DNA of 64,000 bases, taken from contig NZ_CP040463.1 of NCBI RefSeq assembly GCF_005843985.1, forward strand, positions 732,001 to 796,000. Direction: 5' to 3'. The notes under the pieces were generated by a model. It had not been told where the DNA came from. It made no database searches and worked only from the letters and a program-made list of their open reading frames with translations. The position numbers were made by a program, and so were the translations under genes. Numbering within the stretch: position 1 is the first letter of the stretch; the number at the start of each line of letters is the position of its first letter. This document shows, one piece after another, positions 3,808 to 63,028 of this stretch. The DNA is from Caminibacter mediatlanticus TB-2 (GTDB taxonomy: Bacteria; Campylobacterota; Campylobacteria; Campylobacterales; Nautiliaceae).

Positions 3808-4392
3808 ATGGGAAGTAGGGAAGAAAAAAAAGAGTATATAATGAAAACTGCTCTTAATCTTTTTGCTAAACAGGGTTTTTTTAATACTACTATTTCTGAT
3901 ATTGCAAAAGAGATGGGAATGAGTGTTGGAAATTTATATAACTATTTTCCAAGTAAAGAATCTCTCGCAAAAGAGCTTTTAATATATACTTCCAAAAAAT
4001 TTGGAGAAGAGATGAGAAAAATAAATGAGATGGATATTCATAGTAAAGATAAAATCAAAAAAATTGTCGAACTTTATTTTAAGAAAGCTCAGGAAGAACC
4101 AGAACTTGTAGACTATTTTATGAGAGTTTATCTCTCAAATAAAGAGATATTCAACAATGGATGTGAAGGAATGCTTTGTGTTTCATCGTTTGTAACAGAA
4201 ATAATGATTCTTTTTGAAGAAGGTGTTAGAAAAAAAGAACTTAAAAATCAAGATTTTTTTGCAGCATTTGGACTTTTTATGGGATATATTGGAGGTATTG
4301 CGTTTTTAAATAGAGAAAATATATTAGGAAAATCACTTAATGAGTATATTGAACCTGTAAGTGAGAATATTTACAATGCACTTAAAGCCTAA
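3808..4392 (+). CDS. TetR/AcrR family transcriptional regulator
   Basis: This 194-aa protein has an N-terminal TetR helix-turn-helix (TTISDIAKEMGMSVGNLYNYF, in two parts at residues 27-47), the standard YxxF end of the recognition region, and a variable helical ligand domain. AAGGA precedes the ATG. Its stop lies inside the start region of the downstream hydrogenase small subunit, so the regulator and the putative H2 sensor are translationally coupled. The ligand domain contains an unusual Cys pair in NGCEGMLCVSS near residues 110-120, which might respond to redox or metal. That last point is inference. Confidence 0.9.
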   Translation: MGSREEKKEYIMKTALNLFAKQGFFNTTISDIAKEMGMSVGNLYNYFPSKESLAKELLIYTSKKFGEEMRKINEMDIHSKDKIKKIVELYFKKAQEEPELVDYFMRVYLSNKEIFNNGCEGMLCVSSFVTEIMILFEEGVRKKELKNQDFFAAFGLFMGYIGGIAFLNRENILGKSLNEYIEPVSENIYNALKA

Positions 4393-5224
4393 AATAGTTT
4401 GGATTGATGGTATTGGCTGTAATGGATGCAGTCATTCTTTTTTTAATTATGAAGAGTTTGATAATTTTTTAGATGATTTTGAACTTCTTTATCATCCTCT
4501 TTTGTATTTTGATAATTTTGAAAAAAAAAGTGATATTTTAATAATTGAAGGAGCTTTAAGAGAAGGTTTTAAAAGAAACAATAAAAATTTAATCAAATTA
4601 ATAGAAGAATTGATTATAAATTCAAAATTTGTAATATGTTTAGGGACTTGTAGTAGTTATGGTGGAATTTTTGGTGAAGGAGTTATGTTTAATAAAAAAG
4701 AAAATGGAATTTTTTATGATTATAAAAATAAAATAATTAACATCCCAGGTTGTCCTCCTCATCCTAACTGGCTTGGATATGTTTTATATATGATAAAGGA
4801 ACATCAAGAAATTTTACTTGACGAACTTAATAGACCAAAAGAAATTTTTGCATTTACTACTCATGCTGGATGTAGTAGAAATGAGTATTTTGAGTGGAAA
4901 ATAGATAGTGAAAATTTTGGTGAAAAAGAAGGGTGTTTATTTTATTATCAAGGATGCCAAGGTCCATTTACTCATAGTAGTTGTAATAGAGATTTATGGA
5001 ATGGGGTTAATTCAAAAACAAGAGCAGGTACTCCTTGTTTTGGGTGTACAGAGAGTTGTTTTCCTAAAAATGAGCTTTTTAAAACACAAACTCTAATGGG
5101 GATTCCTGCAAATATTCCACTTGGTGTAAGTAAAAGAGCATATCTTACACTTAGTGGAATTGCAAAAAGTTTAAAAAATGAAAGATTAAGTCAAAAATTA
5201 TTTGAGTATAAAGATAAAAAATGA
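4376..5224 (+). CDS. hupU: Cytoplasmic [NiFe] hydrogenase small subunit, HupU/HoxB-like (sensor type)
   Basis: Small subunits carry the Fe-S relay from the [NiFe] site. This one has no twin-arginine signal and no C-terminal anchor; the mature sequence begins at once with KIVWIDGIGCNGCSHSFF, with proximal-cluster Cys15 and Cys18. LGTCSSYGG and INIPGCPPHP supply the other proximal ligands. THAGCSRN, GCQGPFTHSSC and CFGCTESCFP supply the other two clusters. The ATG at 4376 is preferred to a GTG at 4361 because little precedes the core fold in cytosolic members. Lack of export and the partner's missing C-terminal tail point to the regulatory/cytoplasmic group 2 class. A low-activity uptake role remains possible. 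The symbol is by analogy. Confidence 0.88.
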   Translation: MHLKPKIVWIDGIGCNGCSHSFFNYEEFDNFLDDFELLYHPLLYFDNFEKKSDILIIEGALREGFKRNNKNLIKLIEELIINSKFVICLGTCSSYGGIFGEGVMFNKKENGIFYDYKNKIINIPGCPPHPNWLGYVLYMIKEHQEILLDELNRPKEIFAFTTHAGCSRNEYFEWKIDSENFGEKEGCLFYYQGCQGPFTHSSCNRDLWNGVNSKTRAGTPCFGCTESCFPKNELFKTQTLMGIPANIPLGVSKRAYLTLSGIAKSLKNERLSQKLFEYKDKK

Positions 5225-6381
5225 AAATAACAAAAAAAATAATAAATAAAATAGAAGGTGAAGCAGAATTAAAAATTTATCAAAAAGATGGTATTATTGA
5301 TTTTGTAGAAATATTTTTTTGGCAATATAGAGGAATAGAACAGTATTTAGTAAATAGGCATTTTTTAGATGCATTAGTAATAAATCCAAGAATTTGTGGG
5401 ATATGTGGGCATGCTCATTTGCTTGCAACTGCCAAAGCTATTGAGAATGCTTTGAATTTAAAAATAACTAAAAAAGCTGAAATTTTAAGGGATATAACAA
5501 GTGGTCTTGAAATTATTCAAAATCATATTAAATGGTTTTATTTAACACTTTATCCTACTCAAATAAAAGATAAAAGTTACATATTAAAAGCTTTAAATAT
5601 TGTGAAAAAAATTTCAAAAATTATTGCTATTATTGGAGGACAATTTCCTCATAATTCATATATTATACCAGGTGGTGTGACTTGCGATTTAACAAATTTA
5701 GATATTATAAAGATTAAAAACTTATTAAAAAAACTAAGAGAGGATATTTATACCATTATTGATGAAAATGGGAAAAGTCATGATTTAGAAAAGTTTTTTG
5801 AAAATTTACCTAAGAATATAGGAAAAAGTTTAAATAAATTTTTGGTATTAGGAGATAACTTATTTTTTAAACCAAATGGAACTTTTACAAATGTAAAGGA
5901 ATTTTCAAACAATTCATTTTTTAAAAATGTTTTATATAATGAAGAATATTATGAAGTTGGTCCACTTGCAAGAAATTTACAAAATAAGACAATAAATACA
6001 ATTTATGAAAAATATCAAGATAGTATATATACAAGAATTTTTGCACGTCTTTATGAGATACTGTTGATTATAAATTATTTAATTAAAGAAATAGAAGATT
6101 TAGATATTACTCAAAAAAGTTTTTTAAATTATAAAAAAAGAACTTGTGGAAGTGGAGTAAGTGTAATAGAAGCTCCAAGAGGTAGTTTAATACATAAAAT
6201 AAAAATTGAAAATGAAAAAATCAAATTTTACGATATTGTAATGCCTTCTCAGTTTTATTTGTCAAACGGAACAAAAGAAAAGCCATCAGCATCTCAAATG
6301 GCTTTAATGGGAGAAGAAATTAAATATATTGATACAATTTTTAAATGTTTTGATATTTGTGCTGTTTGTGTTATTCATTAA
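5221..6381 (+). CDS. hupV: Cytoplasmic [NiFe] hydrogenase large subunit, HupV/HoxC-like, no C-terminal tail
   Basis: This subunit carries the [NiFe] site. The N-terminal L1 motif is RICGICGHAH with Cys59 and Cys62. The C-terminal L2 motif is DICAVCVIH with Cys380 and Cys383. The protein ends exactly at His386 of L2, so there is no peptide for a maturation endopeptidase to remove. Uptake hydrogenases such as HydB here carry a cleaved tail, whereas H2-sensing HupV/HoxC proteins lack it. At 386 aa it is short for a large subunit. Start overlaps the small-subunit stop by 4 nt. Its 3' end overlaps the convergent transporter gene by 11 nt. Confidence 0.88.
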   Translation: MKITKKIINKIEGEAELKIYQKDGIIDFVEIFFWQYRGIEQYLVNRHFLDALVINPRICGICGHAHLLATAKAIENALNLKITKKAEILRDITSGLEIIQNHIKWFYLTLYPTQIKDKSYILKALNIVKKISKIIAIIGGQFPHNSYIIPGGVTCDLTNLDIIKIKNLLKKLREDIYTIIDENGKSHDLEKFFENLPKNIGKSLNKFLVLGDNLFFKPNGTFTNVKEFSNNSFFKNVLYNEEYYEVGPLARNLQNKTINTIYEKYQDSIYTRIFARLYEILLIINYLIKEIEDLDITQKSFLNYKKRTCGSGVSVIEAPRGSLIHKIKIENEKIKFYDIVMPSQFYLSNGTKEKPSASQMALMGEEIKYIDTIFKCFDICAVCVIH

Positions 6382-60679: not shown

Positions 60680-63028
60680 ATGGATGAATTAATGGAATTA
60701 TTGGATGACTTTTTAGTTGAATCATTTGAAATGATAGAAGAGATGGATAATGATTTAATTGAACTTGAAAATAATCCTGATGATTTAGAATTACTTAATA
60801 AAATATTTAGAGTGGCACATACAATAAAAGGTAGTGGAAGTTTTTTAAATTTTAATAAACTTACAAAACTTACTCATCATATGGAAGCAGTACTTGACAA
60901 AGCAAGAAAAGGTGAGCTTAAAATAACTCCTGAGATTATGGATGTTATTTTAGAGTCAATTGATGCAATGAAAGCAATTTTAGAATATATTAGAGACAAT
61001 AAAAATGATGAATCACCCGATGTTGATATTGAACCAATTGTTAAAAAACTTGATTCTATTGTTAATGGTACTTTTGGAAAAGACGAGAATACAGAAGAAG
61101 AGAAAAAAGGTATTAACGTTGAAGAGATAACTTTGGAAAATGTGGATGAACTTGATTTAGAATCTCTTCCACCAGAAGAACTTGATGCTATTTTGGAAAA
61201 GTTAGTTGATGAAGTTAATCAACCAAAAGAAGAAAAAGAAACAAAAGAAGAAATACAAGAAGATACAAAAAGTAAAAAAGATGAACAAGAAAATCAAGAA
61301 AAAAAAGAAGAATCAAAAAATGAAATTGAAATAAAAGAAGAAAAGCCTATTAAGCAAGAATCTAAAAAAGAGATTACAAAAAAAGACATTAAAAAACAGA
61401 TTGCAAATGTTAAAGAACAAACAATAAGAGTTGATGTAAAAAGACTTGACCAACTTATGAACTTAATTGGAGAATTAGTTTTAGCTAAAAATAGGCTTAT
61501 TAAAATTTATAATGATGTTGAAGAGAGATATGAAGGTGAAAAATTCCTTGAAGAATTAAATCAAGTAGTGTCAAGTATTTCTATTGTTACAACCGATTTG
61601 CAAATTGCTGTTATGAAAACAAGAATGCTTCCTATTGGAAAAGTATTCAATAAATTTCCAAGACTTGTTAGGGATTTAGCAAGAGAGCTTGGCAAAAAAG
61701 TTAAATTAATCATTGAAGGTGAGGATACAGAACTTGATAAATCAATTATTGAAGAAATTGGAGACCCACTTGTACATATGATTAGAAATGCCGTTGACCA
61801 TGGTATTGAACCACCAGAAGAGAGAAAGAAAAAAGGAAAACCAGAAGAGGGTACTATTTGGCTTAGGGCGTATAATGAAGGGAATATGATTGTAATTGAG
61901 ATAAAAGATGATGGAAAAGGGATGGACCCTGAAAAGTTAAAGAAAAAAGCTATTGAAAAAGGAATTATAACACCACAAGAAGCTGAAAATATGAGTGATA
62001 AAGAAGCATTTATGCTTATTTTTAAACCAGGATTTTCAACTGCTGAAAAAGTTACAAATGTATCAGGGCGTGGTGTTGGAATGGATGTAGTTAAGACAAA
62101 TATTGAAAAATTAAATGGTATTATTGAAGTTGATTCAGTGCCAGGTAAAGGATCAACTTTTAAATTAAAAATTCCATTAACTCTTGCAATTATTCAAGCT
62201 TTGCTTGTTGCAAGTCAAGAAGATTTGTTTGCAGTTCCTTTATCAAATGTTATTGAAACAGTAAGGATTGTAGAAGAAGATATTTATACAATTGAAGGAA
62301 AGAGTGTATTAAAATTAAGAGATGAAGTTTTACCTCTTGTAAATATGGCTGATATTTTTGAGATTGAGAAGATACTTGAACCTGAAAAATATTTATATGT
62401 AGTTATTTTAGGGCTTGGTGCTACAAAAATTGGTCTTATTGTAGATAGATTTATAGGACAAGAAGAGATAGTTATTAAATCTCTTGGAGAGTTTTTAAAA
62501 GGACTTCCTGGAATTGCAGGTGCTACAATTAGAGGTGATGGTAGGGTTACATTAATTGTAGATGTTGCAAGTTTAATGAAATTAGCAAAAGAAACACACA
62601 ATAAAAAACTTGTAACTGATTCATTAAATGAAGCTAAAAAGAAAAAAGAAAAACCGCAAGATTATAAAGTTTTAATTGTTGATGATTCAGCAATGGATAG
62701 AAAGATAATGAGACAAGCAATCGAGCCTCTTGAAGTTACTATCTTAGAAGCAAAAGATGGAGTAGAAGCTTTAAATATTTTAAAACAAAATAATGATATT
62801 GATGCAATGCTTATTGATATTGAAATGCCAAGAATGGATGGGTATACTCTTGCACAAGAGATTAGAAAATATAATAAATTTAGAAAACTACCTCTTATAG
62901 CTGTTACAAGTAGGGCTACTAAGTCTGATAGAGTAAGAGGTGTTGAAGTTGGTATGAATGAATATATTACTAAACCATATACACAAGAATATTTACAAAA
63001 TGTTGTAAGAAGAAATTTAAAATTATAA
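60680..63028 (+). CDS. cheA: Chemotaxis histidine kinase CheA with C-terminal receiver
   Basis: The 782-aa hybrid kinase has P1 with phospho-His47 (RVAHTIKGSGSF), a Glu/Lys-rich linker at about 130-235, P3 (LNQV..I), the ATPase domain (RNAVDHGIEPPEER, DDGKGMD, SGRGVGMDVV), a CheW-like P5 and a fused receiver (VLIVDDSAMDRK, AMLIDIEMPRMDG). The CheA-receiver fusion is standard in Campylobacterota. Confidence 0.96.
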   Translation: MDELMELLDDFLVESFEMIEEMDNDLIELENNPDDLELLNKIFRVAHTIKGSGSFLNFNKLTKLTHHMEAVLDKARKGELKITPEIMDVILESIDAMKAILEYIRDNKNDESPDVDIEPIVKKLDSIVNGTFGKDENTEEEKKGINVEEITLENVDELDLESLPPEELDAILEKLVDEVNQPKEEKETKEEIQEDTKSKKDEQENQEKKEESKNEIEIKEEKPIKQESKKEITKKDIKKQIANVKEQTIRVDVKRLDQLMNLIGELVLAKNRLIKIYNDVEERYEGEKFLEELNQVVSSISIVTTDLQIAVMKTRMLPIGKVFNKFPRLVRDLARELGKKVKLIIEGEDTELDKSIIEEIGDPLVHMIRNAVDHGIEPPEERKKKGKPEEGTIWLRAYNEGNMIVIEIKDDGKGMDPEKLKKKAIEKGIITPQEAENMSDKEAFMLIFKPGFSTAEKVTNVSGRGVGMDVVKTNIEKLNGIIEVDSVPGKGSTFKLKIPLTLAIIQALLVASQEDLFAVPLSNVIETVRIVEEDIYTIEGKSVLKLRDEVLPLVNMADIFEIEKILEPEKYLYVVILGLGATKIGLIVDRFIGQEEIVIKSLGEFLKGLPGIAGATIRGDGRVTLIVDVASLMKLAKETHNKKLVTDSLNEAKKKKEKPQDYKVLIVDDSAMDRKIMRQAIEPLEVTILEAKDGVEALNILKQNNDIDAMLIDIEMPRMDGYTLAQEIRKYNKFRKLPLIAVTSRATKSDRVRGVEVGMNEYITKPYTQEYLQNVVRRNLKL

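Follow-up and report, generated by a model that had tools for sequence, protein, structure and literature searches.

Three overlapping genes in the 64,000-nt stretch of DNA analyzed here (the window), which sits in a closed 1,685,887-bp Nautiliaceae genome, encode a TetR-family regulator and both subunits of a cytosolic group 2d [NiFe] hydrogenase. The near-obligate partnership of this regulator with 2d hydrogenases in two phyla, the invariant cysteine pair of the regulator and the candidate operator at hydA are new as far as the literature consulted shows. The explanation towards which we lean, though not strongly, is that TetR represses hydABC, that the H2 or redox input comes from the 2d hydrogenase, and that the cysteine pair is the likely switch.

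Gene organization of the TetR-2d module

The regulator gene (3808−4392, plus strand) codes for 194 amino acids with a TetR_N domain (PF00440, 57.9 bits), in agreement with the first-pass annotation of this DNA, which had read the overlapping upstream gene as a TetR repressor. The small-subunit gene (4376−5224, plus strand; PF01058, Oxidored_q6, and PF14720, NiFe_hyd_SSU_C) most likely starts at the ATG at 4376−4378 inside tetR, an overlap of 17 nt, and itself overlaps by 4 nt with the large-subunit gene (5221−6381, plus strand; PF00374, NiFeSe_Hases, 149 bits). The RICGIC, FDICAVC, EAPRGSL and GPLARN motifs of the large subunit are intact and the active-site and cluster ligands of group 2d are present. 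The two hallmarks described in that annotation are both there: the large subunit terminates at the L2 His (...FDICAVCVIH*), and the small subunit, with the N-terminus MHLKPKIVWIDGIGCNGC, has no Tat motif or export signal, unlike HydA (9951), which carries RRDFLK. The proximal-cluster motif of this small subunit is C-x2-C, and that of the 2d enzymes of Sulfurimonas, Arcobacter and Aquifex (L070, L091, L166) is C-x2-N, as in group 2a.

The module is preceded by the divergent hypA gene (3402−3752) and followed by convergent genes for EamA, an amino-acid ABC transporter and transposase-like proteins (6371−9511). This block splits the 2d genes from hydA here and is absent from most Nautiliaceae relatives. 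Further downstream lie the hydABCD uptake hydrogenase operon (9951−14253, plus strand), the predicted target of TetR, and an ech-type group 4 hydrogenase operon (16437−21646, plus strand), its second predicted target in this genome. As previously noted, the cluster holds no histidine kinase; the CheA encoded at 60680−63028 belongs to chemotaxis. The whole genome codes for two TetR_N proteins.

The hydrogenase belongs to group 2d and not to group 2b

A maximum likelihood tree of large subunits, with references from group 2b (C. necator HoxC and two HupV), 2c (one), 2a (three) and group 1 (three), placed all Campylobacterota and Aquificota homologues, Aquifex included, in one clade with 100/100 support. 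Branches with 100/100 support separate this clade and the window's enzyme from group 2b, ruling out 2b membership and overturning the initial identification of the enzyme as a HupUV/HoxBC-type hydrogenase. The same clade holds the HupSL of Sulfurospirillum multivorans and Aquifex hydrogenase III, both cytosolic and with large subunits lacking a C-terminal extension. The class name 2d rests on the tree, the HydDB description and the assignment of the cytosolic epsilon enzymes to 2D (PMC5401914). In HydDB the role of group 2d is given as unresolved, with supply of reductant for carbon fixation or a regulatory function suggested (PMC5037454). The placement in 2d, which the first-pass annotation had named as a refuting result, therefore corrects the family name and leaves the function undecided.

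Termination at L2, taken in the first-pass annotation as a mark of regulatory 2b enzymes, does not identify this group, because it is common to 2b and 2d: no residues follow L2 in any complete member of the 2d clade (about 160) or in the 2b proteins HoxC and HupV, and the 2a, 2c and group 1 references extend 13−19 residues beyond it. The terminal His itself is replaced by Gln, and in a few cases by Lys, in about 48 of the 160 2d large subunits, all of which still end at this position; the lineages concerned include Sulfurospirillum and Sulfurovum among others (L056, L061, L068, L106, L110, L118 and L134 are examples).

The window's enzyme resembles the 2b sensors in being cytosolic, in having an unprocessed large subunit and no export signal, and in its tie to the control of an uptake hydrogenase. 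It differs from them in its clade, in the absence of the C-terminal extension found in the small subunits HoxB and HupU, and at one bottleneck residue. Of the two residues of the narrow gas channel of HoxC, Ile62 and Phe110, the equivalent of the former is kept in 160/160 clade members; the latter is Thr here and varies across the clade, which speaks against a sensor role. Group 2c, a putative sensor linked to diguanylate cyclases, is similar in that a hydrogenase is encoded together with a signaling protein, but the 2c example has 13 residues after L2 and adjoins a protease gene and a cyclase gene.

The 2b enzymes work with the kinase HupT/HoxJ and the NtrC-type regulator HoxA, whereas the window's module has a one-component TetR. 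Comparison of the HATPase_c proteins of this genome with HoxJ and HupT detected no orthologue: the 13 such proteins match only the generic catalytic core, at 24−28% identity, compared with the 46.5% identity between HupT and HoxJ. The classical two-component route, with a HupT/HoxJ-type kinase from another locus receiving the signal of the hydrogenase, could draw on the HoxC- and HupV-like end of the large subunit. With no orthologous kinase in the genome, a phylogenetic position outside 2b and no HoxB/HupU-type small-subunit extension, we rejected this route as exceedingly improbable.

TetR and the 2d hydrogenase co-occur in Campylobacterota and Aquificota

The large subunit and TetR were each used as a query against the same 397 Campylobacterota genomes. 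Both proteins were present in 112 genomes and both absent from 282; one genome had the 2d enzyme only (G294, where the small-subunit gene runs off the contig) and two had TetR only (G142 and G347, where TetR adjoins hydABC and a perfect operator without 2d genes). A single genus (code g10) gave 15 genomes with both, one with each alone and 14 with neither, indicating that the agreement does not reflect just one old split. In a further Campylobacterota genome lacking 2d (G203), tetR is broken. Among the 81 Aquificota genomes, with the 2d call set at a large-subunit match below 1e-35, 36 had both proteins, none had 2d only, two had TetR only (in one, G419, tetR contains stop codons) and 43 had neither; the hydrogenase-bearing Aquificota tested first had a TetR orthologue in 7/7 cases. 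The Fisher values of the two tables (4e-96 and 5e-21) ignore phylogeny and describe the tables only. Thus the TetR-2d system is not special to the Nautiliales. Its carriers are hydrogen-consuming bacteria of vents and hot springs, in which this TetR almost never occurs without the soluble 2d hydrogenase.

The immediate gene order, which the first-pass annotation had proposed to compare in other genomes, is conserved far beyond chance, with near-perfect coupling in the two phyla. In nearly every Campylobacterota locus retrieved, tetR directly precedes the small-subunit gene, as a rule with a gap of −55 to +8 nt, and hydAB usually comes next after the large-subunit gene. Loci at contig ends depart from this pattern, as do five loci from Campylobacteraceae MAGs (L060, L062, L067, L069 and L081); TetR lies on another contig in four of these five genomes and the fifth (G404) gave no match. 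In the other Nautiliaceae, whose TetR proteins are 79−91% and both hydrogenase subunits 57−69% identical to those of the window, the module is mostly contiguous with hydA, in contrast to the window with its intervening transporter block. In many Aquificota tetR lies far from the 2d genes or on another contig, and there adjoins hydAB, cbiMQO or hyp genes; since co-occurrence holds with the genes apart, the TetR-2d link outlasts synteny. A 49.8-kb plasmid of Sulfurimonas paralvinellae (NZ_CP041407.1, L091) carries tetR, both 2d genes and hydAB consecutively, beside an integrase gene, showing that the module can be mobile.

A candidate operator upstream of hydA tracks TetR

The inverted repeat TGAAT-N4-ATTCA was first noticed upstream of the Arcobacter tetR and then upstream of hydA in most loci. 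Among 128 hydA upstream regions, all from loci that have TetR or a 2d gene, 74 contained an exact copy and 49 a copy with one mismatch, compared with 0.15 and 4, respectively, in shuffled sequences, and the consensus was TGAATGAnTATTCA. Thirty Campylobacterota genomes with hydA and without TetR served as the negative control and gave 0/30 exact and 1/30 single-mismatch copies. At a threshold of ≥12 bits, a weight matrix found the site upstream of hydA in 122/128 regions, upstream of hydA in 0/30 TetR-less genomes and upstream of tetR itself in 19/142 cases; the first of these counts is partly so by construction because the matrix was trained on hydA sites, a dependence of which the exact counts and the control are free. 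The operator also precedes hydA in Aquificota (L198, L200 and L201) and in two loci with TetR and no 2d genes (L203 and L204). The conserved palindrome therefore tracks the presence of TetR, and its co-occurrence with the regulator and its palindromic form suggest that this TetR binds it. The frequency of the site at hydA (122/128) versus tetR (19/142) points to hydA as the conserved predicted target of TetR and to the 2d genes as traveling with the regulator.

In the Nautiliaceae a sigma-70-like promoter, TTGAAA-ATGAATATTTATTTAGTA-TATAAT, carries the operator in its spacer. The corresponding hydA promoter in the window (TTGAAA-N18-TATAAT, 9889−9918, plus strand) contains a degenerate version, TTAATATTCATTTA (9896−9909), where the Nautiliaceae orthologues have TGAATNNNNATTTA; its score is not significant (rank 3−5 in the window), and this degenerate site counts against the one-component reading that we favor below. 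The best match in the window is AAATGAATGTACATTTATTA (16370−16389, core 16373−16386, plus strand), upstream of ech. It ranks first in the 64 kb with a score of 17.5−18.3, the lower value having been obtained with Nautiliaceae excluded from the training set, and shuffled sequence is expected to give 0.05 such matches per 64 kb. The ech operon is not at the corresponding place in other Nautiliaceae. The operator upstream of hydA and the best window match upstream of ech lend sequence support to the earlier guess that the regulator controls hyd or ech; for the other half of that proposal, signaling from the hydrogenase to TetR, we infer a route as set out below.

Matches to TGAATNNNNATTYA are not enriched genome-wide in this genome (29, versus 49 in the control), and single matches elsewhere were consequently not interpreted. 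The second group 1 hydrogenase (L286) has no operator upstream, and a search within single loci for exact six-base inverted repeats present upstream of both tetR and hydA yielded nothing notable. The long inverted repeat AACCTTTTTT...AAAAAAGGTT in the hypA-tetR gap of Nautiliaceae was considered as an operator and dropped because its arms are the Shine-Dalgarno sequences of the divergent gene pair and enclose −10 boxes that the pair shares. In two loci from another Nautiliaceae genus (L282 and L285), TGAATNNNNATTTA immediately precedes hypB, which may be another target there.

The distribution of the operator bears on an alternative role for the module, in which the 2d hydrogenase would be a catalytic cytosolic uptake enzyme that reduces ferredoxin with low-potential electrons, for use in the reductive TCA cycle or other anabolism, and TetR would sense some other ligand and coordinate hydrogen metabolism, the genes being co-inherited. 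Such a role has been proposed in the literature, where the Aquifex homologues, members of the same clade, are described as ferredoxin-reducing. ATP-citrate lyase was present in 9/9 sampled Nautiliaceae, and the persistence of TetR without 2d in G142 and G347 fits a regulator with a ligand of its own. However, ATP-citrate lyase is missing from 37 of the 113 genomes with 2d and present in 43 genomes without it. A role in CO2 fixation through the reductive TCA cycle of the ATP-citrate lyase type therefore cannot be general, which weakens the catalytic alternative. Nor was a redox-partner gene recognized in the module. Finally, the operator present at hydA is usually missing from the tetR-2d promoter; the 2d hydrogenase is thus not an obvious target of its own regulator, and the layout is typical of a sensor paired with its regulator and not of an enzyme controlled by the repressor encoded with it. 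Taking both sides together, we regard the catalytic role as rather unlikely.

An invariant cysteine pair in the TetR ligand domain

The regulator has the traits of its family, a TetR_N helix-turn-helix and an all-helical ligand domain, and no TetR family model reached its cut-off for this protein. The nearest solved folds are TetR proteins such as 3ppb, 4me9, FadR, RutR and HapR, none of them informative on the ligand. The fold and TetR_N are shared with the FadR, RutR and HapR type, whereas the C-x4-C pair and the linkage to a hydrogenase are particular to this clade. FadR operators have TGAATGA half-sites, which served as a lead only; a literature search for this operator returned nothing usable.

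The cysteine pair of the ligand domain reported in the first-pass annotation is C119/C124, and it proved invariant in 129/129 distinct orthologues, including those of Aquificota and the two that occur without the hydrogenase. In the AlphaFold2 model (pLDDT 90.6), Cys119 falls in the least confident loop, ahead of helix 120−141, whose first turn holds Cys124. Six diverged paralogues (40−48% identity) have no Cys pair at this place; four of them have a C-x4-C a few residues away, and of these four, two adjoin Ech-type hydrogenase genes (L209 and L210, 40−45% identity). In L209 a strong TGAATGA-type site lies upstream of the paralogue itself.

The invariant pair might instead serve in the sensing of a metal or of redox state, with the C-x4-C binding, for example, nickel or forming a disulfide. 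TetR would then make hydrogenase synthesis depend on the supply of cofactor or on the redox state, with the 2d enzyme outside the signaling. The Aquificota tetR often has CbiMQO-type transport genes or hyp genes as neighbors (L199, L201 and L202), and H. pylori hydABC is controlled by nickel and iron (PMC6682613); both facts are in line with this reading. It leaves unexplained, however, the near-obligate link to 2d, which holds even where the genes are unlinked, and we consider it improbable.

A proposed one-component route of H2 control

In the reading that we prefer, the three genes would form a one-component H2-control module. TetR would act as a dedicated repressor of the membrane-bound hydABC, binding TGAAT-N4-ATTCA in or beside the promoter and thereby repressing transcription; in this genome ech is probably under its control as well. 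In the presence of H2 the cytosolic 2d hydrogenase would become reduced and, through its iron-sulfur chain and by direct contact, would alter TetR, most likely at the invariant Cys119/Cys124. The altered TetR would then leave the operator and hydABC would be derepressed. The proposed repression of hydABC is based on the correlation between operator and regulator, and TetR may also act without the 2d hydrogenase, since G142 and G347 keep it together with a perfect hydA site.

The broader proposal is that 2d enzymes are a third kind of H2 sensor, which uses neither a kinase nor a second messenger, signals to TetR through the cysteine pair by direct contact or by transfer of electrons, controls hydABC, and is ancestral to or widely exchanged among Campylobacterota and Aquificota. 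We find this proposal plausible, stopping just short of calling it probable. If correct, it describes a gas-sensing route in which the redox state of a metalloenzyme drives a one-component repressor, and it gives a testable role to a class listed in HydDB without a settled one. The TetR partnership and a concrete 14-bp candidate operator make the role of 2d enzymes experimentally addressable.

A sensing function has been named before: papers on Nautilia and Sulfurimonas call their 2d enzymes H2-sensing or ferredoxin-reducing, and H2-sensing is the term that earlier papers on N. profundicola and PV-1 apply to the enzyme. In S. multivorans a TetR gene upstream of hupSL was suggested to encode a repressor of hupSL (PMC5357620); the TetR described here differs from that view in being a phylum-wide partner of the hydrogenase with its site at hydA. 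The same study reported constitutive hydB and almost no hupL transcript, from which its authors inferred that an H2 sensor is missing (PMC5357620); these data count against the sensor reading. In our own view, constitutive hydB could follow from an absent repressor if tetR is silent together with hupSL. If the sensor proposal is correct, the module would add a layer of control on hydrogen oxidation in vent Campylobacterota, a group with at least one member previously believed to have no H2 sensor. In one Aquificota locus (L200) the gene of an NtrC-type sigma-54 activator (7262−8644) lies directly upstream of tetR, which suggests another regulatory layer.
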